DNA from: a virus
DNA: 24,087 nucleotides
Reading direction: 5' to 3' (one strand)
Virus record (IMG/VR): IMGVR_UViG_3300047300_000194
Location: 1 to 24,087 of that record
A model generated the notes under the pieces. That model made no database searches. It saw only the letters and a list, made by a program, of their open reading frames with translations, and was not told the DNA's origin. Position numbers and translations under genes: made by a program. This document shows, piece after piece, positions 454 to 15,804 of this stretch (position 1 is its first letter; every line of letters begins with the position of its first letter).

Positions 454-461
454 TATTTAAG
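454..461 (-). promoter_or_regulatory. Possible late promoter box (CTTAAATA) overlapping the gp5 stop
   Basis: The minus strand reads CTTAAATACTATTATG, where the TAA is the gp5 stop codon and the ATG starts gene 25. The TAAATACTA core is the same as in the boxes upstream of the gp6-like start and of the gp67-like gene. Only five bases separate the box from the ATG, so a transcript starting here would have almost no leader. Overlap with a stop codon makes chance occurrence quite possible. Confidence 0.35.
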
Positions 462-3400
462 CCTTTCCGCCGGGTACAAAGCTGGCTAGCTGAATGTGTA
501 CCTTATCTGGTGTATTAAATGTGCCACCCCAACGTAGTCCATACTTAGCTAAGTCAACTACACTAGCCATTTCAGCCGCTTGTTGTCCCATGTCAACAGC
601 AATACCATTGCCGTGTGCATTTAGTTTGCCGCCTTTGCTTAGTGGTAATGCAGGAGTAGTAATGCCGCCTGCTGTTGGCACGTCTGGTAAATGCCCCCCG
701 GCTGCTACCCAAGTTGCGTAGATACGCTCTTGTTCTTCTGGGGCACGGTACGCACTGGCCAAGTTAATCTTCTTACCAGTTTTCTGTTTGTACTCTTGTC
801 CGGCACGTAGAATAGCGTTCTTAAATGCTGTACTTAACTTATCAAAGTCCACACGTCTACCAGTAGGTGGGAAATAATTAAAGATGTCGTCTGGGTTGAT
901 GCCCGAATCAGAATCTGCTGTAGCAGACTGTTCACCACTTCCGCCACCCGCGGCATTACCTGCAACACTTAATACGTCAATTGCATAACGTCCACGATTA
1001 TATGAATCAATTGGTGTTTGTTTAGCGGCATTGGTTCCAGTATTATCTGTACGCCAGGTTTTGGCTGCAAGTACCATAGCGTTTACGTCACTGCCAAATA
1101 GCTGTGTTTCTTCTTTGAAGAAGTAGGTAACGTAAATCATTCCGGCGGCTGCACAAATACTGTCTTTAAAATCAATACCTCGGCTGTTAGTTAAACGCTT
1201 AAATGCATCTTGAATAAAGTTAGACATACACATGTCTTGGGCAGCAACAGACTTCTTAAAGTCTGCAGAAGTCTTAATACCTTCTTTACCTGACCAAGCA
1301 TTAGGCTGGTTAATTGCATCTAGCTTATACTTCTTAAGATAGTCAGGTTTAATAAAACCGTACTCTGCCAACAAGACAGCGTTAATACCATAACGGCCAA
1401 TTGTTGTTGCTGTAGAAAACTCTGGATTAAAGTCGCTTTCAGCATACGCAATTTCAACCATTAGAGCTTTAATCTGTGGCGTAGTTAATCCTGGTTGGTA
1501 GTTGCCGTCATCTGGGTTACCACGTCCTTCTAATTCAAAGTCCGGAGTAGGGGCATCGGCCTTCTTCATAAACTCTGCCGGAGCCTGCTTAGATACGCTC
1601 TTTCCTGCGGCTGCTTTGATACCTTTGTCTGTTGCATCTGCCCCGGACTGTACAGGATTACCTGAACCATCAGTTAAGTTTGTGCCACCTGCTTGCACCG
1701 CACCCTTACGGATAAATGCATACTGTGCTTTAAACGCAGCCTTAGTGCCTGCTGTTTTGCCATGTGCATTGTTTGTGCCCACACCGTCGTAGCGCCCACG
1801 GCCTAGCTTAGGATCTTCAATTGACGCCCAGATTCCAGCGCAAGCAGAACAAGCGTTAATTAGTGCCGCTTCGTCGTCGGCACTAGAGCCTTTTAAGTAT
1901 GTGCCCATTGAGCCATACATTGATAGATACTCAGTAAAGATGCGATCTTGTACAGCGGCGTCAAATTTGCTAGATGTAGCGATACCTAATTTTTTACATG
2001 CTGCTACTAATGTATCCGGGATACACTGATAACGTCCAACTGCAAATAATCTCTTAGCAGGATCAGGCTGATTACTTGCTCGTTGTGCCAAGATTTCATC
2101 AATAGTCATCCCAACTAAATCAATCTTTTCGCCGCCAACTGTACCTGTGCCTTTCGGCGGGCTTGAACCTCTGTTAAATGCGTTATAGCTAGCAGTACCA
2201 GATTCAAATCCAGCAATATAATCTCCTAGCGGTCCGGCACCGCCGGCGCCACCTGTTGGTAATTGCGGAGCTGGTGCTATGTCTGTACAGACGTTTTGTA
2301 CCGCAGAGTTTGTAACTGAAATACCCGGCACCGGCGTGGTGTTTCTTGGCCATGGTTCATGTGATGGTGCTGTAGTAACAATAGAATCTAGGGTTCCAGG
2401 TACAGTAGCCCACAATCCTGCGCCGTTTTTGTTTGCGTCAGCGTGACTGTTTACTGATAGCTCGCCTGGGTCTGCAACTGCCGCAACTGCGCCATCGTTT
2501 AATCGAATATAGCTACCAACTAATTTTAATTCTGCGCCAGCACTTACACCCAATTCGCCACCTGCGGTTACTGATAATTTACCCGACGACCCTAATCCAA
2601 CTGATGCGCTGTACATTGTTAAATCGCCGCTGGCACGTAGCTTCATTGTGCTACTTTGCAATTGCATACTGCCTAGGGCTTTAATGTTAACACTAGAACC
2701 TTGGATGTTAACACTAGCATCACTGTGCAAGTTTAGTGTACCCTGCGTTCTAAAGTTCATACCTTGCTTACTATAAACATGCAAAGCACCGCTGTTGCCA
2801 AATTCCATCCACACAGAACCTGCGCTATTAGAAATATACAGTACTTGCTCGCTATCATTCATTAGGATTTGATGCCCGCCTGCTGTACGCAATCTAATTA
2901 GTTTGTCTGTGCCTGTACTATCACCGTCATCCATTACAAAGGTGTGGCCACCTTGGCGTACTTTAGGCGTTACATCAGACCCCGACTCTGCCGGCAGTCC
3001 CGGAGTGCTAATACCAAATACTCGCCCAGGTGCGTCACGCATACTGCTGGAACTAATAGCACCTCGTACACGGTCTGTATCCAATCCTTGATTAATAATA
3101 ATTTCAGCTTGTGGTTCGTGTACTGGAAATTTGTTTGTTAGGAACCCACCGCCCATGTTAGCAGGTACGTTTTCGTTGAACTCTGCCAGTGGTAAGTAGG
3201 ATGTCTCTGGGCGCCCTAGCGATGAACGTACCAGTTCGCTTTTTACTGTATCTTTATCTACGTTTTCGCTGAAACGACCAATAGCTGGGACCATGCCGTG
3301 GCTTAGGTTTGTAGATGTTACAACTGCAAACCAAAATCCTCTGCCTGCGTCACCGTTAACAAACACACACAATACTGTCGCCCCAACGTCAGGCGGAACC

Positions 3401-3690
3401 ATCCACATCCCGTATGTGCTTTCTGTTTGCTCGTAGGAGTTTTTGCTGTTGGTTTCTTTTTGCTGTGTTGAACCGTAATACGGGCTGGCATAGTTTACCC
3501 AACGCCAATTGTTTACGTCATCTTCGTCGCCGCCTTTATCAGGAAACCATACTCTTAAACGGCCTAGTCGTAATGGGTCAACGTTTTGTTTAACAATACC
3601 AGAATAGACACCTTTGTCAAAGGTCATTCCGCCTACGCTATTCTCGTTGGCCCAATCTGGTAATTTCCGTGCTGTGGTTCTATCTGCCAT
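457..3690 (-). CDS. 5: gp5-like baseplate hub/spike protein with three cell-wall-hydrolase-like modules
   Basis: The 1077-aa protein is the central spike of the tail tip, which punctures the outer membrane and cuts peptidoglycan during injection. T4 gp5 is 575 aa, so this is nearly double. Residues about 25-125 form the gp5/VgrG-type OB-fold (Y-S-G-I-V, L-G-R-L-R-V, W-V-N-Y-A-S-P-Y). Residues about 250-405 are short alternating repeats rich in S, G, N and L, as expected for the triple-stranded beta-helix needle. Residues about 485-620 look like a lysozyme/transglycosylase module (F-E-S-G, then F-A-V-G-R-Y-Q). Residues about 735-880 look like a second one (A-Y-A-E-S-D-F-N-P, then G-R-Y-G-I-N). 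Residues about 960-1068 match M15 D,L-peptidases (S-A-Y-R, H-G-N-G-I-A-V-D, H-I-Q). The order differs from T4, where the single lysozyme lies before the beta-helix. It sits 16 bases after the LysM structural gene. Confidence 0.88.
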   Translation of the reverse strand: MADRTTARKLPDWANENSVGGMTFDKGVYSGIVKQNVDPLRLGRLRVWFPDKGGDEDDVNNWRWVNYASPYYGSTQQKETNSKNSYEQTESTYGMWMVPPDVGATVLCVFVNGDAGRGFWFAVVTSTNLSHGMVPAIGRFSENVDKDTVKSELVRSSLGRPETSYLPLAEFNENVPANMGGGFLTNKFPVHEPQAEIIINQGLDTDRVRGAISSSSMRDAPGRVFGISTPGLPAESGSDVTPKVRQGGHTFVMDDGDSTGTDKLIRLRTAGGHQILMNDSEQVLYISNSAGSVWMEFGNSGALHVYSKQGMNFRTQGTLNLHSDASVNIQGSSVNIKALGSMQLQSSTMKLRASGDLTMYSASVGLGSSGKLSVTAGGELGVSAGAELKLVGSYIRLNDGAVAAVADPGELSVNSHADANKNGAGLWATVPGTLDSIVTTAPSHEPWPRNTTPVPGISVTNSAVQNVCTDIAPAPQLPTGGAGGAGPLGDYIAGFESGTASYNAFNRGSSPPKGTGTVGGEKIDLVGMTIDEILAQRASNQPDPAKRLFAVGRYQCIPDTLVAACKKLGIATSSKFDAAVQDRIFTEYLSMYGSMGTYLKGSSADDEAALINACSACAGIWASIEDPKLGRGRYDGVGTNNAHGKTAGTKAAFKAQYAFIRKGAVQAGGTNLTDGSGNPVQSGADATDKGIKAAAGKSVSKQAPAEFMKKADAPTPDFELEGRGNPDDGNYQPGLTTPQIKALMVEIAYAESDFNPEFSTATTIGRYGINAVLLAEYGFIKPDYLKKYKLDAINQPNAWSGKEGIKTSADFKKSVAAQDMCMSNFIQDAFKRLTNSRGIDFKDSICAAAGMIYVTYFFKEETQLFGSDVNAMVLAAKTWRTDNTGTNAAKQTPIDSYNRGRYAIDVLSVAGNAAGGGSGEQSATADSDSGINPDDIFNYFPPTGRRVDFDKLSTAFKNAILRAGQEYKQKTGKKINLASAYRAPEEQERIYATWVAAGGHLPDVPTAGGITTPALPLSKGGKLNAHGNGIAVDMGQQAAEMASVVDLAKYGLRWGGTFNTPDKVHIQLASFVPGGKA

Positions 3691-8310: not shown

Positions 8311-8337
8311 GCGCTAACTGTGAAGGAATCCTGCATC

Positions 8338-9252
8338 GTGCAACCAATAGTAAAAGTTAAAAACTATCTAAACAACAAAGACATTTTAAAAGAAATCCAT
8401 AAAAGCAAAAGTACCTACTGTACGTTCTTAGATCCTGCGTATGCAGACTATGATATGATTTTGCCTAGCGTGGATAAAATTAACAAAAAGAACATCATGC
8501 AAGCACGTAAAGATCGTGCAGAACGCTTAACTAAAGCGGCGTTTGATGAAGCTAATATCGATGGTGTAGCAAAAGCCAATAAGAAAAAGCTAGAAGATTT
8601 TGAAGTAAAACTCAAAGACGTCCCAGCAGAAGATGTGGTTTTTCGAGTTATGACTTGGGAACACGTACCCCCGGCTGCTCCAAAAGTTAAAAAAGGTGCT
8701 GCCATTGTTATTGAGGAAGTAGAAGAGGAAGAACTACTAACTGAGTATGATGACCCAGAATTAGTTAAAGCTCCTACCAAGTACACCAAATGTAACTTCC
8801 CGCCATTCTTCCATTACAAAGTTACAGAAGATGGTACCCCGATACTAGTAGGTAAATCGCATTGGAAGGGCGACTTAATTACAGGGGAATTTAGCAAAGA
8901 TCACGGACAAATGACAAAGAAGCTGGCACACATGTTTATGAAGTTATGTGAACGGTATGCTACACGCTCCAATTGGAGAGGATACACATACAATGACGAA
9001 ATGCGTTCTCAAGCTTTATTACAGCTTAGTCAGATTGGGCTCCAATTTGACGAATCCAAGAGCCAGAACCCTTTTGCTTATTACACGGCGGCTATTACTA
9101 ATAGTTTTACGAGGGTGCTCAATATCGAGAAACGTAGTCAGAATCTTAGGGACGACATCCTTGAGATGAACGGGCTCACACCAAGTTACACACGTCAGGG
9201 CCAAGGCGGCACCTGGGGTGGCGGTGGTGGCGGTTACGATGCAGATGAATAA
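8338..9252 (+). CDS. 55: Late-transcription sigma factor gp55
   Basis: The protein is the phage sigma subunit that directs host RNA polymerase to T-A-A-A-T-A late promoters. The diagnostic region is residues about 195-285: L-C-E-R-Y-A-T-R-S-N-W-R-G-Y-T-Y-N-D-E-M, then F-D-E-S-K-S-Q-N-P-F-A-Y-Y-T and I-T-N-S-F-T-R-V-L-N-I-E-K, which match the sigma-region-2-like core of gp55. I chose the GTG at 8338 because an AAGGA element sits ten bases before it; an in-frame GTG at 8320 lies almost at the predicted transcription start and would add six residues. At 304 aa it is much longer than T4 gp55 (185 aa): about 190 residues precede the core, with a lysine/glutamate-rich helix and an acidic patch (E-E-V-E-E-E-E). 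The C-terminus ends in a glycine run. The gene opens the rightward replication/regulation block. Confidence 0.88.
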   Translation: MQPIVKVKNYLNNKDILKEIHKSKSTYCTFLDPAYADYDMILPSVDKINKKNIMQARKDRAERLTKAAFDEANIDGVAKANKKKLEDFEVKLKDVPAEDVVFRVMTWEHVPPAAPKVKKGAAIVIEEVEEEELLTEYDDPELVKAPTKYTKCNFPPFFHYKVTEDGTPILVGKSHWKGDLITGEFSKDHGQMTKKLAHMFMKLCERYATRSNWRGYTYNDEMRSQALLQLSQIGLQFDESKSQNPFAYYTAAITNSFTRVLNIEKRSQNLRDDILEMNGLTPSYTRQGQGGTWGGGGGGYDADE

Positions 9253-9295: not shown

Positions 9296-10312
9296 ATGAG
9301 TAATCTATTTAAAAAGGCCGCGGTCTTTACCGACATTCACTTTGGTTTAAAATCAAACAGTCAACTACATAACGAAGACTGTTTGTCTTTCGTTAAATGG
9401 GCCACTGCCAAAGCAAAAGAGGAGGGGTGCGAAACGTGTCTATTCCTTGGCGATTGGCATAACAACAGGGCTAGCATTAACATCCTAACCCTCCAATATA
9501 GCTTACAAGCACTGGAGCATCTCAATGATAATTTCGAAACTGTTTATTTTATTCCTGGTAACCATGATTTGTACTATCGTGACAAGCGGGACGTACAATC
9601 TGTGGAATGGGCAAAACACTTACCCAACATCAAGATATGCAATGATTGGTTCTCTAGCGGTGATGTGGTTATCGCTCCTTGGCTTGTGGCTGAAGACCAT
9701 AAACGAATTCCTAAACTAAAAGGCAAATACATGTTCGGGCACTTTGAACTGCCCGGATATTTAATGAACGCAATGGTTGCTATGCCCGAACACGGCGAAC
9801 TCCGTGGCGATGACTTCCAGGGATTTGAACATGTGTTTAGCGGTCACTTTCACAAGCGCCAAACCCAGCGCAATATCACATACGTAGGCAATTGCTTCCC
9901 ACATAACTATGCAGATGCTGGCGACGATGATCGCGGTATGATGATACTTGAATGGGGCAAGCAACCTGAATTTCATGCATGGCCCGACCAACCCAAGTAT
10001 CGTGTATTTCAACTTAGCGATGTTATCAATCATACTGAAGCAATGCTTAAACCCGGTATGCATTGCCGCGTTAACTTAGACATTGATATTAGTTATGAAG
10101 AAGCAACGTTTATTAAAGAAACGTTTATCGATACTTACAAGTTACGTGAGATTACCCTTATCCCTGCTAAAGTTACAGAGCTAACTGAATACGAAATACA
10201 AGGCAACATTGAGTTTGAAAGTGTTGACCAAATTGTTGCAGGACAACTTAGTTCATTGGAAAATGGCAAGTTTAACAAGAATCTGTTGCTAGACATTTAT
10301 CGTAACTTGTGA
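9296..10312 (+). CDS. 47: Recombination endonuclease subunit gp47 (SbcD/Mre11-like metallophosphoesterase)
   Basis: This 338-aa protein is the nuclease subunit that pairs with gp46 to resect DNA ends for recombination-dependent replication and host DNA degradation. All metal-binding motifs of the calcineurin-like phosphoesterase fold are present: D13-x-H15, G-D53-W-H55-N, G-N89-H90-D91, the G-H-F-E-L element near residue 150, and G-H184-F-H186-K-R. Length matches T4 gp47 (339 aa). The stop overlaps the next ATG as TGATG. The start codon has no Shine-Dalgarno element and sits six bases after a candidate -10 box. Two extra genes separate it from gene 46. Confidence 0.93.
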   Translation: MSNLFKKAAVFTDIHFGLKSNSQLHNEDCLSFVKWATAKAKEEGCETCLFLGDWHNNRASINILTLQYSLQALEHLNDNFETVYFIPGNHDLYYRDKRDVQSVEWAKHLPNIKICNDWFSSGDVVIAPWLVAEDHKRIPKLKGKYMFGHFELPGYLMNAMVAMPEHGELRGDDFQGFEHVFSGHFHKRQTQRNITYVGNCFPHNYADAGDDDRGMMILEWGKQPEFHAWPDQPKYRVFQLSDVINHTEAMLKPGMHCRVNLDIDISYEEATFIKETFIDTYKLREITLIPAKVTELTEYEIQGNIEFESVDQIVAGQLSSLENGKFNKNLLLDIYRNL

Positions 10313-10992
10313 TGAAGCATTTTGATCCAACAAGTAAAGACATAATTGTTATAAATTATCCGCCGGGCGGATTTGGTAACTTCTTATATCATTTATTTTC
10401 TGAGTTTGCTAACGAAACCGTTAAAGTTAACAACCGTTTTGAATTTAGCAAAACCGGTAACAGTCATGCAACTTGGAAATACACACAAACCTATCGTGCT
10501 CAGTACCCGTATTATCCTGTTATTGATCACAACGCAAACGCCGACGGTAAGAAAATTTTAGTGTTATGCGACAACGGTTTAGAAAACCCAGAACTCGATA
10601 ATGTAATTAATACATTTCCAAATGCACAAATTATCCGGGTAGTCCCAAACGATTCTTCGAGATATTTGTTAATGCAAACTTGTACAGAAAAGGCCGCAGT
10701 AAAAGTCTTACATGATTTATCGTACGATCCGCTAATTGCCATATGGGATAGATCCGTTCTAGGTCCTAAAATTGATTTGTGGACTTCAATTGAGCATAGC
10801 AATGTACATAACTTAATGCTAACTGCTTTAGTATTAGACCCTGTTAAAGAATTTGAACGCTTATGTTCAAAATTGGGGTTAACAGTATTCAACCAGGACA
10901 ACTTAGAATTATTTTGTAATGAATGGGCAGAACAAAATCGCAGGTACATAGAGCCTTTTAAAGAATACTATGATAGATCTAAAAACAGTTAA
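10312..10992 (+). CDS. Putative P-loop / sulfotransferase-like protein
   Basis: I do not recognise this 226-aa protein with certainty. Near the N-terminus a beta-strand leads into Y-P-P-G-G-F-G-N-F-L (residues about 15-24), a glycine-rich loop resembling the PAPS-binding loop of sulfotransferase-like proteins rather than a GKT/S Walker A. The C-terminal part (E-W-A-E-Q-N-R-R-Y-I-E-P-F) is also like the ends of such proteins. If so it would transfer sulfate from PAPS to a carbohydrate or other acceptor, but this is inference and no second substrate-binding motif is obvious. The ATG at 10312 overlaps the gp47 stop (TGATG), which favours coupling, and the gene overlaps the next radical SAM gene by 23 bases. 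The tight overlaps on both sides place it in one operon with the nuclease and radical SAM genes. Confidence 0.55.
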   Translation: MKHFDPTSKDIIVINYPPGGFGNFLYHLFSEFANETVKVNNRFEFSKTGNSHATWKYTQTYRAQYPYYPVIDHNANADGKKILVLCDNGLENPELDNVINTFPNAQIIRVVPNDSSRYLLMQTCTEKAAVKVLHDLSYDPLIAIWDRSVLGPKIDLWTSIEHSNVHNLMLTALVLDPVKEFERLCSKLGLTVFNQDNLELFCNEWAEQNRRYIEPFKEYYDRSKNS

Positions 10993-11839
10993 GTGGCTTC
11001 AAATCGAAGCTTCTAGCAAATGCAATGCCTGGTGTCCGGGCTGTTCTCGCAACAAAAACGGATACGAGCTTGCTGACGATCTTGTAATTGAGGATTTAAA
11101 GACTGAGCGTTTTGCTGAAGTACTAGCAATGATGCCCAACTTAGAAGTTGCGGACTTTTGTGGCACGTTCGGAGATGCTATTGCCGCTAGCAACATTGTT
11201 GAGCTTACTGAATTAGCAAAGGCTGTTCCAGAAATACTTGTACGCACCAATGGCAGTCTACGCAACGAAGATTGGTGGCGTGACTACGCTAAACAGCTAG
11301 CAGGACACAAACATAACGTTTGGTTTTGCTTAGACGGGCTAGAAGATACCCATCACATCTACAGACAAGGCACTGACTGGCAAAAGATTATTCGCAATGC
11401 TACAGCATTTATTGAAGCAGGTGGCTATGCTACGTGGCAGTTTATCCCATGGGCACACAACGAACACCAAATCAAAGACTGCTTGCGACTGAGTCAAAAG
11501 TTAGGATTTAAGAAGTTTGAGTTGTACAAGCGTGTACGCACAAACTTTTCTGCACGTGATTATAGAACTGGTGCTCCTGTTAATATACAGCCATGGAGCC
11601 GTAACGAAACTATCAACCCGTTAACGTTTGTAAAGACTAGAGTGGAAACAAAAGACTGTATGCATTTGGCTTTCCCTAGCATGTACTTAAATGCTAGTGG
11701 TAAATTAAATGTTTGCTGTTTCTTTAACAAGTTTTTTGCAGACGAAGACCCGTCCAAACTTATGGACATTACAACCCAGCTTGCTAATACAGATTCGGTA
11801 CATAGAGTTTGTATGCACCATTGCGGAAGCAACACATAA
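10970..11839 (+). CDS. Radical SAM protein 1 with C-terminal auxiliary cysteines
   Basis: The 289-aa protein has the canonical CxxxCxxC motif that binds the [4Fe-4S] cluster (C18, C22, C25), following an L-Q-I-E strand, so it should cleave S-adenosylmethionine to a 5'-deoxyadenosyl radical. The central part has D-G-L-E-D-T-H-H-I-Y-R and A-H-N-E-H-Q. The last 65 residues carry further cysteines (D-C-M-H-L, N-V-C-C-F-F, V-C-M-H-H-C-G), like a SPASM or twitch domain that holds an auxiliary cluster. Family members with such domains often modify peptides or proteins; the substrate here is unknown. It is a clear paralogue of the radical SAM gene at 13611-14474. It overlaps the upstream gene by 23 bases and ends 18 bases before gene 46, inside the span that separates 47 from 46. 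Confidence 0.85.
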   Translation: MIDLKTVKWLQIEASSKCNAWCPGCSRNKNGYELADDLVIEDLKTERFAEVLAMMPNLEVADFCGTFGDAIAASNIVELTELAKAVPEILVRTNGSLRNEDWWRDYAKQLAGHKHNVWFCLDGLEDTHHIYRQGTDWQKIIRNATAFIEAGGYATWQFIPWAHNEHQIKDCLRLSQKLGFKKFELYKRVRTNFSARDYRTGAPVNIQPWSRNETINPLTFVKTRVETKDCMHLAFPSMYLNASGKLNVCCFFNKFFADEDPSKLMDITTQLANTDSVHRVCMHHCGSNT

Positions 11840-11849
11840 CAAGTATAAT
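11821..11849 (+). promoter_or_regulatory. Sigma-70-type promoter abutting gene 46
   Basis: TTGCGG (11821-11826), a 17-base spacer and a perfect TATAAT (11844-11849) precede gene 46. Only eight bases lie between the -10 box and the ATG, so the transcript would start at or next to the start codon. The -35 lies in the 3' end of radical SAM gene 1. The AGCCCA that follows the -10 box is also found before gene 47. Confidence 0.6.
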
Positions 11850-11857
11850 AGCCCAGT

Positions 11858-13627
11858 ATGTTCAAAATTAAAGACTTAACAGTTAAAAACTTCATGAGTG
11901 TGGGTAATGCCACACAGGCCGTCAACTTTGACCGCAGGGACTTAACACTAGTACTTGGGGAAAACTTAGATTTAGGGGGCGATGACTCAGGCGCACGTAA
12001 CGGTACGGGCAAGACCACTATCATTAATGCCTTGTCCTATGCCCTTTACGGCAACGCCCTCACCAATATTAAGAAGGACAACTTAATCAACAAAACAAAC
12101 CAAAAAGGCATGATGGTTTGTATCGACTTCGAAAAAGACGGCATTGATTATCGCATTGAACGCGGACGTAAGCCCGGCGTTATGCGCTTCTTTGTAAGTG
12201 GTAACGAAAAAGAAATCACAGACGAAGCACAAGGCGATAGCAGAGAAACTCAAGCAGAAATTGAACGTATGTTGGGCATGAGCCACGACATGTTCAAGCA
12301 CATTGTTGCGCTAAACACATATACAGAACCGTTCTTGAGTTTAAAAGCCAATGACCAACGTGTAATCATTGAGCAGTTGTTAGGTATTACATTGCTTAGT
12401 GAAAAGGCTGAACGTCTTAAAGAATTAAACAAGGCCACTAAGGATGCAATTACTCAAGAAGAATTCCGCATCAAAGCAGTAGGCGATGCTAATAAACGTA
12501 TCCAAGATCAAATTGACGCTCTGCTAAGACGCCAAACGCTATGGACCACTAAGAAGTCCGGCGATGTTGCGGCACTACAGTCTGCGTATGATCAACTTGC
12601 ACAAATCGACATCGAAGCAGAGTTAGCGGCGCATCATGCACTGACCGAATACAACAACAAATCCAAACTGATTAAAGATTTAACTGGATGGATTAAACGT
12701 TGCGAACTAGATGAAGCACGAGAAAATAAAACTATAGAAAAACTCAAAGCCGATATTGCTAGTTTAGAAAATCACACCTGCCACAGTTGCGGGCAAGCGT
12801 TCCACGATTCAAAACAAGAGACGTTGCTAGAGGAAAAGAAAGCGGCATTACAGGAAGCCGCATTACAAGCACTAGCAACAAATACACAGTGGTTAGAACA
12901 TTCTGATGCACTAAAAGAGCTAGGAGAGCTAGGTCCACAGCCGCAGGTGTTCTACGATCGCGAAAGCGATGCGTTTGAACATCGCAGTAGCATGGCTAGT
13001 GTGCTAGCGCAGTTGTCTGCTAAAGAGTCAGAAGCGGATCCATATGCAGAACAAATTAAAGAAATGCAGGATCAAGCATTAGAAGAAATTGATTATGCTG
13101 TAATGAATGATCTAGTAAGTTTAAAAGAGCACCAAGAGTTCTTGCTTAAACTGTTAACAAACAAAGATTCGTTTATTCGCAAACGTATTATCGATCAGAA
13201 CTTATCGTACTTAAATGCTCGCTTAGGACAATACTTAGATCGTATTGGCTTGCCGCATACTGTAAAATTCAACAACGACTTAACTGTAAGCATTACAGAA
13301 CTAGGCCGCGACTTAGACTTTGACAACTTGTCTCGAGGCGAACGTAACAGATTGATCTTATCACTATCGTGGGCGTTCCGCGATGTGTGGGAAAGCTTGT
13401 ATCAACCAATTAACTTGCTGTTCATCGACGAACTTATCGACTCAGGTATGGACAGTAACGGTGTTGAAAACAGTTTAGGCATCCTTAAGAAGATGGCACG
13501 TGATGCTAACAAGAGTATTTGGCTTGTGTCACACAAAGACGAACTAGCAGGGCGTGTAAACAATACACTACATGTTATCAAAGAAAACGGATATACCAGT
13601 TACAACACCGATGTTGACATTGTTTGA
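11858..13627 (+). CDS. 46: Recombination endonuclease subunit gp46 (SbcC/Rad50-like ATPase)
   Basis: This 589-aa protein is the ATPase partner of gp47 in the phage Mre11/Rad50-type complex. Walker A is G-A-R-N-G-T-G-K-T-T (residues about 45-54). A coiled coil runs from about 185 to 440, interrupted by the zinc hook C-H-S-C-G at about 308-312. The ABC signature L-S-R-G-E-R-N-R lies near 490 and Walker B L-L-F-I-D-E-L near 521, with a late W-L-V-S-H-K-D-E switch histidine. Length is close to T4 gp46 (560 aa). No Shine-Dalgarno element precedes the ATG; a perfect TATAAT ends eight bases upstream. The 3' end overlaps the next radical SAM gene by 17 bases. Confidence 0.94.
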   Translation: MFKIKDLTVKNFMSVGNATQAVNFDRRDLTLVLGENLDLGGDDSGARNGTGKTTIINALSYALYGNALTNIKKDNLINKTNQKGMMVCIDFEKDGIDYRIERGRKPGVMRFFVSGNEKEITDEAQGDSRETQAEIERMLGMSHDMFKHIVALNTYTEPFLSLKANDQRVIIEQLLGITLLSEKAERLKELNKATKDAITQEEFRIKAVGDANKRIQDQIDALLRRQTLWTTKKSGDVAALQSAYDQLAQIDIEAELAAHHALTEYNNKSKLIKDLTGWIKRCELDEARENKTIEKLKADIASLENHTCHSCGQAFHDSKQETLLEEKKAALQEAALQALATNTQWLEHSDALKELGELGPQPQVFYDRESDAFEHRSSMASVLAQLSAKESEADPYAEQIKEMQDQALEEIDYAVMNDLVSLKEHQEFLLKLLTNKDSFIRKRIIDQNLSYLNARLGQYLDRIGLPHTVKFNNDLTVSITELGRDLDFDNLSRGERNRLILSLSWAFRDVWESLYQPINLLFIDELIDSGMDSNGVENSLGILKKMARDANKSIWLVSHKDELAGRVNNTLHVIKENGYTSYNTDVDIV

Positions 13628-14474
13628 AACTGCCCGAGTATTGCACATTGAGCCTACAGATGTTTGTCAGGCTGCATGTCCTGCGTGTGCCCGGGAAACG
13701 GATCCTGCGTTTGATAAGCGAGTACACAACTACCACACGTTGCGTAGTTTTAAAAATACTGTGCCAGAAAAGCTTATCTATCGTCTAGATAAAGTTTACA
13801 TGTGTGGTAACTACGGCGATCCTGCGGCTAATGAGGAAAGCAAGTCTATTCTCTCGTATGTTCGTGAAGTAAACAGTAGCATTGTGTTAGGCATGAATAC
13901 CAACGGCGGGCTGCAAAGTTCTTATTGGTGGGCCGATTTAGGACTTGTAATGTACAAGCCCGAAGATTACGTTGTGTTTAGTATAGACGGACTAGAAGAC
14001 ACCAATCACATTTATCGCCGAAACGTTTCGTGGGATAGAGTAATGCGTAATGCTGAAACATTTATTTCAGCAGGCGGCAATGCACACTGGGATATGCTGG
14101 TATTCAAACACAATGAGCATCAAGTTGATGCTTGCGAAAAGCTAGCAAAGAGCATGGGCTTTAAATGGTTCCGTGCTAAAGTTAGTAAACGCCCTGTTCC
14201 CACAGGATTAGCACAACCCGTACAGTGGACAAGACCTACAGCTAAAGGCACAATACAATGTCAGGCTCTTGCAGATAGAGGCTTGTTTTTAAGCGCAAAA
14301 GGCGTGTTTAGCCCCTGTTGTTGGCTAGGAGAAGCGGATCCGACGGCAGATTTTGCACAAGTACAACAGAGCTGGGGTACAGCTACCCCGCACAAGACCT
14401 GTACAGAAATGTGCAGTTCTGCAAACAATTTAACTAACTTTGCCAGCCAATGGCAAAGGGTAACAGAATTTTAA
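13611..14474 (+). CDS. Radical SAM protein 2, paralogue of the one at 10970
   Basis: The 287-aa protein has CxxxCxxC at C19, C23 and C26 after an L-H-I-E strand. It shares with radical SAM protein 1 the D-G-L-E-D-T-x-H-I-Y-R block, the R-N-A-x-x-F-I-x-A-G-G block, the H-N-E-H-Q motif and the C-terminal cysteine set (Q-C-Q-A-L, P-C-C-W-L-G, T-C-T-E-M-C), so the two arose from a common ancestor, yet they are strongly diverged. I chose the ATG at 13611 because it gives the same distance to the cluster motif as in protein 1; an in-frame ATG at 13572 would add 13 residues and overlap gene 46 by 56 bases. The substrate is unknown. Co-transcription with gp46 is likely because of the overlap. Confidence 0.85.
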   Translation: MLTLFETARVLHIEPTDVCQAACPACARETDPAFDKRVHNYHTLRSFKNTVPEKLIYRLDKVYMCGNYGDPAANEESKSILSYVREVNSSIVLGMNTNGGLQSSYWWADLGLVMYKPEDYVVFSIDGLEDTNHIYRRNVSWDRVMRNAETFISAGGNAHWDMLVFKHNEHQVDACEKLAKSMGFKWFRAKVSKRPVPTGLAQPVQWTRPTAKGTIQCQALADRGLFLSAKGVFSPCCWLGEADPTADFAQVQQSWGTATPHKTCTEMCSSANNLTNFASQWQRVTEF

Positions 14475-14517: not shown

Positions 14518-14946
14518 ATGACATGGCACTTTCAAGGAACTCCCGTTGACACTCTCCCCGAGGATTGCGTGGGTTTCGTATATCTTATCACAAACACAGT
14601 ATCAGGGCGCAAATACATAGGTAAGAAACTAGCAAAATTTTCTAAAACAACTCAAAAAACAGTAAAATTAAAGAACGGCACCAAGAAGAAAAAGAAAATC
14701 CGCAGTAAAGTGGATTCTGATTGGCGCGATTATTATGGCTCAAGTCCCGAATTAAGCAAAGATGTAGAAGCATTAGGCGCTGACAAATTTACAAGAGAAA
14801 TTCTATACTATTGTAAAAGTAAAGCAGAATGTAGCTATGTTGAAGCTAGGGAACAATTCACACGTAAAGTTTTAGAAACATCAGATTATTATAACGGACA
14901 CATTCAAGTCCGTGTCCATGGCTCCCACATCTTAAACAAAATCTAA
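14518..14946 (+). CDS. GIY-YIG family endonuclease-like protein
   Basis: The 142-aa protein begins with a GIY-YIG nuclease core: G19-F-V-Y22 then, eleven residues later, Y33-I-G35-K-K. The second strand tyrosine pair is thus present with a variant first motif (G-F-V-Y). A lysine-rich insertion (about residues 40-65) follows, then D-W-R-D-Y-Y-G-S-S, a C-K-S-K-A-E-C-S-Y-V-E-A-R-E helix carrying a possible catalytic glutamate, and a Y-Y-N-G element near the end. Small stand-alone GIY-YIG proteins in T4-like phages can be homing endonucleases (Seg) or host-DNA nucleases (DenA); I cannot decide which this is. It is the last gene of the rightward block and is followed by the structured non-coding region. 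Confidence 0.72.
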   Translation: MTWHFQGTPVDTLPEDCVGFVYLITNTVSGRKYIGKKLAKFSKTTQKTVKLKNGTKKKKKIRSKVDSDWRDYYGSSPELSKDVEALGADKFTREILYYCKSKAECSYVEAREQFTRKVLETSDYYNGHIQVRVHGSHILNKI

Positions 14947-15435
14947 TTAAACGGTTTATGGCTCACGCAGGCTAATATCATGCGTATAGGAAAACTGGAC
15001 CTCGGGTCACAGGGACGTAAATCTTTCGCCGTTAAAAGTACTCAATCACTATCCTTAACAGGACGAAGATCGCAAATTGCCGCGGTTTGATTGTTTGAAG
15101 AGAATAAAGCGATTGCGTGCCAGGAGTGCAAGCAATTAAGTAAAGGCTAAAAAGACGCAGAAGCGATTCTGCAGGTTTGTATAATATGTTAGCGTATGTT
15201 ATGCAAATTGCCGTTGTGATAAAGACGCAACTCGAGGTACCGGACAACCGCCTCTGTAATGTTGTAACGCTATGTGGCTGTGCTACTCAGATGAAGCCCA
15301 TTCATTTCTTTGCCCTGTGCGGGCAAAGTGTGACCGATTAATCTAGATGAAACTAGTATTCGCTTCGCTCTTAATGTAAACTAATTAAAATACATGTTGT
15401 GAGCGTAAGCGAAACAACAGATCTCGTTAGAGATC
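14947..15435. ncRNA. Candidate structured non-coding RNA region between convergent genes
   Basis: About 490 bases hold no convincing gene but many inverted repeats. From left to right: ACGCA/TGCGT (14965-14985); GACC-TCG-GGTC (14998-15008); a long helix of 14 pairs with three single-base bulges (15021-15035 with 15055-15070); ATTGC-G-TGC against GCA-A-GCAAT (15112-15136); GCAGAA-GCGA-TTCTGC with a GNRA loop (15157-15172); GAGG..CGG-ACAA-CCG-CCTC (15234-15254); CTTTGCCC/GGGCAAAG (15308-15328); and a 12-pair helix with one bulge (15359-15370 with 15401-15413) that encloses ATGTA/TACAT. The GNRA loop exists only if the plus strand is the RNA. I find no tRNA T-loop, no tmRNA tag and no RNase P core motif. 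Family and function are unknown. Confidence 0.5.
15180..15185 (+). promoter_or_regulatory. Perfect TATAAT inside the non-coding region
   Basis: A perfect -10 hexamer lies just after the GNRA hairpin. No -35 hexamer is seen 16-18 bases upstream, though TG directly precedes the box. It could start a short transcript covering 15192 to about 15436, which would contain the three strong downstream hairpins, or a 46-codon open frame at 15201-15341 that I do not otherwise support. Confidence 0.3.
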
Positions 15436-15436
15436 T
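15419..15436. terminator. Hairpin between convergent transcripts, possible bidirectional terminator
   Basis: AGATCTC-GTTA-GAGATCT forms a perfect 7-bp stem with a four-base loop and touches the stop codon of the leftward DUF6165 gene. On the minus strand the stem is followed by GTTGTTTCG, moderately U-rich; on the plus strand by TAATATATC. Neither side has a strong U tract, so termination is plausible but unproven. It is placed as expected for the end of both converging units. Confidence 0.4.
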
Positions 15437-15804
15437 TAATATATCTTCTCTTCAATGATCTTACTGTTGCTTAGTAAGTTGATTTGCTTTTTAATGCTAG
15501 CACGTATATCATTTTTAATGTATACCGATCGAGCGAGTTGAATAAATTCGAAATCGAACTGTTGTGCAGTTTCGCACTTTCTCTTGCTATCTTCAATAAC
15601 CCACAGCTCTGAGTTAATTTTGTACAGTTCCGCTTTAAGGGCTGTTACGTCTACGTTTAAGCTATTATACAGTTCGAGTAGTAGTTTTAACTCTCGCTGT
15701 ACGTTAGCTAACTTTTCAGCATCCGACGTCTTGGATGCTTTGATTTCTAGGATTGTGATTTTATCGACTAGTTCGCCGATGCTAATAGGTGCTAGGACTG
15801 ACAT
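15436..15804 (-). CDS. DUF6165 family protein
   Basis: The 122-aa protein matches the DUF6165 pattern as I know it: I-S-I-G-E-L-V-D-K-I-T-I-L-E-I-K near the N-terminus, L-x-x-I-N-S-E-L-W-V-I-E-D in the middle, F-I-Q-L-A-R-S-V-Y-I-K-N-D-I-R-A further on, and a closing I-I-E-E-K-I-Y. It is predicted to be nearly all alpha-helical with no membrane segment. In bacteria the family is found near surface-polysaccharide glycosyltransferase genes, but its biochemical role is not established. Here it is the last gene of a gp26-led operon, one base after the preceding stop codon, so it is probably expressed late. Confidence 0.75.
   Translation of the reverse strand: MSVLAPISIGELVDKITILEIKASKTSDAEKLANVQRELKLLLELYNSLNVDVTALKAELYKINSELWVIEDSKRKCETAQQFDFEFIQLARSVYIKNDIRASIKKQINLLSNSKIIEEKIY

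Follow-up and report, generated by a model that had tools for sequence, protein, structure and literature searches.

The window analysed in this study is a 24-kb fragment (24,087 nt) of a T4-like phage from IMG/VR (record IMGVR_UViG_3300047300_000194). In its gp55-47-46-segE interval, genes 47 and 46 for two nuclease subunits are accompanied by two genes, R1 and R2, whose products are, by their motifs, intact twitch-type radical S-adenosylmethionine (SAM) enzymes, and by a gene with a predicted sulfotransferase fold, ST (Table 1). The initial annotation had placed two homologous radical SAM proteins on either side of gene 46 and a sulfotransferase-like gene between gene 47 and the first of them, and both statements hold. 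R1 and R2 share 35% identity over 283 residues (E 1.1e-37), with conserved motifs, and both match PHROG 21308 (E 5.5e-19 for R1 and 2.9e-17 for R2). The Pfam model Radical_SAM is matched by R2 with 31.2 bits, above the cutoff of 29.5, and by R1 with 23.5 bits, below it. Eight cysteines (CxxxCxxC; C-x13-G-x4-CC; CxxxC) are invariant in an alignment of 34 relatives, where the blocks DGL and HN.H show little or no variation, and all three cysteine motifs are kept in 94 of the 95 phage copies of a wider dereplicated set. The feature that defines the radical SAM superfamily, CxxxCxxC in a partial TIM-barrel fold, is found in the motif and in the AlphaFold model of R1 (predicted local distance difference test, pLDDT, 94.9). 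For a twitch domain we asked for C-x9-15-G-x4-C with a further C-terminal cysteine pair, about four to five cysteines in total; R1 shows this pattern in C230, C249/C250, C281 and C285, which are invariant among the 34 relatives. Each protein is thus predicted to bind the radical SAM [4Fe-4S] cluster and one C-terminal auxiliary cluster, as had been proposed for both.

Beyond the superfamily, the two proteins fit no NCBIfam equivalog, no Pfam family other than Radical_SAM and no PHROG with a function. They stay below the cutoff of 170 for the N-terminal twitch model NF033640 (R1 30.5 bits, R2 39.7 bits), the best score among the named NCBIfam equivalogs, including the tungsten-enzyme maturase TIGR04317, is 40.7 against a cutoff of 380, and the search of PDB sequences gave only weak matches of the core (NifB, ChlB, GDGT-MAS). 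In a comparison with the near relative L003, the ratio of nonsynonymous to synonymous substitution rates (dN/dS) amounts to 0.034 for R1, 0.123 for R2, 0.031 for gp46 and 0.015 for gp47, values which are rough as dS is near saturation. R2 evolves faster than the neighbouring genes in this comparison, and the low ratios indicate that R1 and R2 are both working genes.

ST remains below the cutoff of Pfam Sulfotransfer_3 (21.6 bits, cutoff 27). Its structural model is of moderate confidence (pLDDT 73.5), and the top 50 VIA matches of this model are all sulfotransferases (Z 10.1–11.3), so that ST has a sulfotransferase fold according to the model; with regard to a possible PAPS-dependent activity, its YPPGGFGNF loop resembles a phosphate-binding loop. 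The genes from gp55 to segE are separated by gaps of at most 43 nt. The start of R2 is probably the one given in Table 1, by comparison with the start in relatives including L003, and with it the overlap of R2 and gp46 is 17 nt instead of 56 nt. The tight packing of five genes described in the initial annotation is confirmed, but not their functional unity, since overlapping joints are normal for phage genes and ST is missing from L003 (gp47 97% and R1 93% identical), where stop and start codon together read TAATG.

Table 1. Positions of the genes and the RNA in and beside the gp55-47-46-segE interval of the window
Feature	Position	Strand	Remark
gp55	8320-9252	+	Upstream end of the interval
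Gene 47, SbcD-like nuclease subunit	9296-10312	+	PHROG 100 (E 2.9e-63); host gene of the hotspot, not cargo
ST, predicted sulfotransferase-fold cargo gene	10312-10992	+	226 aa from ATG; GTG alternative at 10309
R1, predicted twitch-type radical SAM enzyme	10970-11839	+	289 aa; belongs to the 47-46 slot clade
Gene 46, SbcC-like nuclease subunit	11858-13627	+	PHROG 77 (E 4.1e-98); host gene of the hotspot
R2, predicted twitch-type radical SAM enzyme	13611-14474	+	287 aa; clade of the post-gene-46 slot; open reading frame open from 13572
segE-like GIY-YIG endonuclease	14518-14946	+	PF19835 (E 3.7e-34); downstream hotspot border, same location in the majority of related loci
Large structured RNA beside the hotspot	14959-15430	+	Separate from the radical SAM pair; Rfam Polynucleobacter-1 over 14960-15096 only
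DUF6165 gene beside the RNA	15436-15804	-	Present in only some relatives

An accessory-gene hotspot around genes 47 and 46

Related viral loci were collected by scans with R1 (37 loci) and R2 (25 loci) and by a third scan with gp46 (80 loci); the last sample holds the 80 loci closest by gp46 sequence, and its rates apply to this phage group and not to T4-like phages in general. Most loci keep the order gp55-gp47-gp46-segE, with varying content in between. Of the gp46-anchored loci, 47 contain the whole stretch from gp55 to segE, and in 29 of them a radical SAM gene lies within the interval. Among these 47 loci, the 55-47 slot is empty in 35 and holds radical SAM genes in 5 and other genes in 7; the 47-46 slot is empty in 23 (radical SAM 4, other genes 20), and the 46-segE slot is empty in 13 (radical SAM 28, other genes 6). 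Up to four radical SAM genes stand around gp46/47, for example in L027 and L160, and R2 is missing from L007 and L008, whose gp46 is 91% and 95% identical, respectively. The other cargo includes sulfotransferase-like, short-chain dehydrogenase/reductase (SDR), pyridoxal phosphate (PLP)-enzyme-like, SGNH hydrolase and adenylating genes, as well as UDP-glucose-dehydrogenase-like and epimerase-like genes and transporters, several of them named from their sequence only. Because the slots vary among loci and whole genes differ between near relatives, the gp55-47-46-segE interval is an accessory-gene hotspot in a large group of aquatic T4-like phages, a single conserved site at which many of them store oxygen-sensitive radical enzymes. 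R1 and R2 are very probably accessory cargo of this site, with no part in the nuclease function of gp46/47. The role tied to gp46/47 that had been deduced from gene order is not borne out, as the slots are often empty or filled with unrelated cargo and relatives of R1 and R2 occur in quite different contexts; this removes a misleading reading, and the link to the recombination nuclease is one of location only. The place beside gp46 is not unique to the window, which agrees with the initial annotation, but the two copies do not always flank gene 46.

Several of these loci show further arrangements. In L027 (14491-16209, identical in L028), an R-type radical SAM domain, that is, one of the R1/R2 family, is fused with an SDR dehydrogenase domain, and in other phages the two are adjacent genes, which suggests that the R-type and SDR proteins may act on one substrate. 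In L048-L059 (for example L048 10763-13153 and L051 12631-14803), apparent sets of NitT/TauT-type ATP-binding cassette transporters and a TctA/TctC-like transporter follow downstream of R2. Pairs of PLP-enzyme-like genes of one family (AT37) lie between gp46 and segE in L149, L201, L208, L214 and L220, in many cases with a gene for a small protein (about 160–185 aa) between the two, and this family also occurs in bacterial loci with multiple radical SAM genes. In L008 (1341-2205; gp47 98% and gp46 95% identical to the window), the R1 frame is broken near residues 234-245, by either decay or an assembly error.

In a tree of 157 proteins, R1 and R2 fall into distinct clades. The R1 clade has 19 rows, 18 from the 47-46 slot and one from the 55-47 slot, and nearly all of the 35 rows of the R2 clade come from directly after gp46, while third copies farther downstream form another group. 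A tree of 50 rows supports the two clades with 100/99 (R1) and 100/100 (R2) and groups R2 with the bacterial R-type proteins of multi-radical-SAM clusters (90/71), with R1 elsewhere. Sisterhood of R1 and R2 is not the best tree, although it is not firmly rejected (approximately unbiased test, p = 0.053). A recent duplication, which the initial annotation had also thought improbable, is rejected, for each clade is distinct, well supported and bound to its own slot; the trees point either to two acquisitions or to a split that is very old. In the set anchored on R1 and R2, 13 loci have R1 but no R2-type gene, 3 have R2 but no R1, and 13 have both. This independent occurrence rules out an obligate R1-R2 pair, and the proposal of two subunits of one enzyme is not supported.

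Downstream of segE lies the one longer stretch without genes, 490 nt (14947-15435), which is a structured RNA. The match to Rfam RF01718 (Polynucleobacter-1) reaches 111 bits at a cutoff of 37, while conservation extends to about 15430, three times the length of the Rfam model, giving an RNA of about 450 nt. By a nucleotide profile it is present in 83 of 140 viral loci and in 0 bacterial loci, usually at most 15 nt or 150–230 nt from segE. In the helices 3' of the Rfam model, 96% of the cells are paired in 30 aligned copies, and 185 double changes were counted there, whereas shuffles lead one to expect 52 and sliding the partners gives no more than 37. The conserved RNA is real and larger than the Rfam model. 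A survey of structured RNAs in 2010 described the Polynucleobacter-1 motif from Burkholderiales and from fresh water and estuary (PMC2864571), an origin that hints at the host group. The DUF6165 family (PF19662) of the gene beside the RNA, considered as a candidate link to glycan clusters, was found above cutoff in none of 11 genomes with R-type clusters. Far upstream (457-3690, minus strand), the window encodes a gp5-like hub protein of 1077 aa with a peptidase M15/VanY-like C-terminal end and lysozyme-like stretches mid-protein, recognised by eye only.

Bacterial and archaeal relatives and the candidate substrate

When the family alignment was used in one scan of bacterial and archaeal genomes, it retrieved 79 loci, which are of two kinds. 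In the first, a single R-type gene stands in a setting like a glycan operon. For example, GT4 and GT28-like glycosyltransferase genes lie directly downstream of it in Paraburkholderia fynbosensis (L065), a UDP-glucose dehydrogenase gene lies directly upstream in Defluviimonas (L129), and a further locus (L101) combines it with UDP-glucose dehydrogenase, MocA oxidoreductase and methyltransferases. The second kind comprises 26 bacterial and archaeal loci, several of them with glycosyltransferases, in which 3 to 13 radical SAM genes belong to as many as four types; they come from Bdellovibrionia, several marine metagenome-assembled genomes (MAGs), Chloroflexi and a Heimdallarchaeon (within L064-L133, e.g. 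L077, L114, L122 and L125). The four types are R-type, N-twitch (NF033640), c7-type and B12-type, and their partners are SDR, GT2, QueC-like, Asp/Asn-hydroxylase-like and methyltransferase-like proteins, some named from sequence alone. Phages carry N-twitch, c7-type and B12-type genes too, the N-twitch members with NF033640 scores far above the cutoff (257 in L019 and 410 in L063, in hotspot proteins). Moreover, among the non-radical-SAM families that recur in the multi-radical-SAM loci, 7 of 34 are found in phage cargo, compared with 2 of 46 in a control (Fisher p = 0.03); one of the seven (k84) is a c7-like radical SAM protein by motif, so that the true count is six and the contrast weaker. 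Glycosyltransferases and methyltransferases lead the Pfam tally near bacterial R-type genes (GT2 4 and GT28 3 of 109), from which no enrichment is claimed.

The fold was of limited help as a clue to the substrate. With the R1 model as query, SuiB, SkfB, BlsE and MoaA were tied at the top of the list (Z 17.7–18.6, with SuiB at 18.6 and BlsE at 17.9), followed by DesII (Z 16.9) and then by anSME and BtrN (Z 14.1), while BlsE was the best Foldseek match (E 7.6e-10). Fold search was rejected as a means of substrate assignment, as it does not separate peptide from sugar enzymes; the predicted twitch/SPASM-like fold would fix the chemistry, a radical abstraction with an auxiliary cluster, and not the substrate.

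In the reading that we favour, R1 and R2 are accessory enzymes, independent of each other, that reside in an insertion hotspot. Their 5'-deoxyadenosyl radical would dehydrogenate, epimerise, decarboxylate or cross-link a substrate whose best candidate is a sugar, a nucleotide sugar or the growing surface glycan of the infected cell, and neighbouring cargo, here the putative sulfotransferase, may decorate the product further. The phage may benefit through an altered host surface, for example against superinfection, or through redirected host metabolism. We give the sugar or glycan class a probability of about one half, because the bacterial relatives sit in glycan operons, the cargo includes sulfotransferase and UDP-sugar genes, and there are two published precedents. 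Several observations weigh against it: the peptide and protein enzymes SuiB, SkfB and anSME score about equal to BlsE, the window carries no glycosyltransferase, and some multi-radical-SAM loci are without obvious glycan genes. In addition, the slot-specific clades speak for a long and stable residence, more than random cargo would give, and leave room for a function tied to the expression of the operon. A wider and rather tentative idea is that T4-like phages and scattered bacteria and archaea share a mobile, hitherto undescribed radical SAM biosynthetic system, whose parts would be R-type twitch, N-twitch, c7-type and B12-type enzymes with SDR, PLP-like, methyltransferase and sulfotransferase proteins, whose product would be a new modified surface glycan or small molecule, to which R1 and R2 would belong, and of which the hotspot would be a main carrier.

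Instead of a sugar, R1 and R2 could make or alter another small molecule (a cofactor, natural product, modified nucleotide or nutrient) as part of an auxiliary metabolic pathway. Other hotspots hold adenylating enzymes, PLP-like pairs, amidinotransferase-like proteins and NitT/TauT-like, TctA and TctC-like transporters, and PqqE, MoaA and NirJ-type models match weakly; furthermore, 261 viral radical SAM genes from the Baltic Sea were annotated as heme ahbD, a role called speculative by the authors themselves (PMC9301287). However, the cutoffs of these equivalogs are reached by none of the members and the bacterial single-copy relatives sit in glycan operons, and we regard this alternative as rather unlikely. 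The modification of a peptide or protein (a ribosomally synthesized and post-translationally modified peptide, RiPP, or a phage or host protein), possibly tied to recombination, is close to what the initial annotation favoured. Twitch/SPASM domains are indeed common in peptide maturases, SuiB and SkfB top the fold list, and the B12-type proteins encoded next to relatives show sub-cutoff similarity to RiPP C-methyltransferases. Yet the radical SAM motif of R1 and R2 begins at residue 18, whereas the alignments start at residue 101 or 102 of SuiB and SkfB, and R1 and R2 have no fused N-terminal extension that could serve as a RiPP recognition domain, a finding that covers the two proteins within this 24-kb fragment of the phage genome. 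From gp55 to segE there is no room for a short precursor gene beside R1 or R2, a statement that concerns this neighbourhood and not a distant gene, and the long gap proved to be the RNA. With mixed fold matches, an association with genes 46 and 47 that is positional only, and bacterial kin beside glycosyltransferases and UDP-sugar dehydrogenases, the proposal has so far gained no support and is unlikely.

Some hypermodifying phages use radical SAM, PLP and SDR enzymes on their DNA bases, and radical SAM and PLP enzymes occur in pathways of thymidine hypermodification; the PLP-like pairs of the hotspot, together with GNAT-like and QueC-like families in the wider set, would fit enzymes that hypermodify the bases of phage DNA. 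This is quite improbable, as the content varies strongly among near relatives, the same families cluster in bacteria without phage context, and no pyrimidine hydroxymethylase or base kinase is seen in the list of open reading frames of the window. Even more improbable, to a point where we give it hardly any weight, is that R1 and R2 combine into a single heteromeric enzyme or a recombination accessory working with gp46/gp47. Their position on both sides of gene 46 in a tight operon order, with each clade kept to its slot, is what such a complex would predict, but they occur apart, ST or other genes break the order, and gp46/gp47 persist without them in many contigs.

If the sugar or glycan reading is right and the product is a surface glycan, the repeated carriage of such genes by phages would be explained and a further chemistry would be added to superinfection control. 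The hotspot also links the phage enzymes to bacterial clusters, as yet uncharacterised, in which up to 13 radical SAM genes stand together. It offers a route to the substrate, since the sets in phages form small natural subsets of a large pathway and lend themselves to tests of two or three enzymes at a time.

Comparison with known systems

The sugar and aminocyclitol enzymes BlsE, BtrN and DesII resemble R1 and R2 in having a radical SAM core with a C-terminal extension, but identity is at most 18%, and the equal scores of SuiB and SkfB leave the substrate unfixed. The bacterial clusters (in Bdellovibrionia, a marine Rickettsiales MAG, a Chloroflexi MAG and a Heimdallarchaeota MAG) contain the same R-type family (profile bits 239 for R1 and 271 for R2) and have N-twitch (NF033640), c7-type, B12-type and SDR partners in common with phages; they differ in combining up to 13 radical SAM genes with glycosyltransferases, whereas no more than two such genes are present in the window.

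Among phages, the Campylobacter T4-like phages CP220 and CPt10 encode 11–12 radical SAM proteins (Timms et al. 2010, PMC2853527) and have an interchangeable block of five genes, probably acquired en masse and non-essential (PMC2853527). In the CP220 record, an amidinotransferase and two nucleotide-diphospho-sugar transferase domains stand beside the radical SAM genes, and CP220 and its relative F379 hold, by E-value, the closest of the few relatives that R1 has in annotated phages (23% identity, E 1e-8). These phages and those with the hotspot are alike in being T4-like and in acquiring or losing several radical SAM genes together as one block. However, in the CP220 record the block is found past baseplate-type genes and the stretch shown contains no gene 46/47, and the sequences are very distant, while the hotspot phages have stable slot-specific clades and sulfotransferase, SDR and PLP-like cargo. 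In pelagimyophages, radical SAM cassettes have been reported in host-recognition islands (PMC7029224), and in Mosig EXVC030M radical SAM genes lie beside an ArnB-like aminotransferase, a carbamoyltransferase and an epimerase. These are likewise marine T4-like phages that gain and lose radical SAM genes, in their case next to sugar genes, but the genes lie in the tail-fibre/VrlC region and show 24% identity over about half of R1 or R2. We found no description of the gp47/46 hotspot or of the bacterial multi-radical-SAM clusters in the open-access literature. Thus, phage radical SAM modules as such are already known, and what is added here is the conserved site at genes 47 and 46, the slot-specific lineages and the families shared with bacterial clusters.

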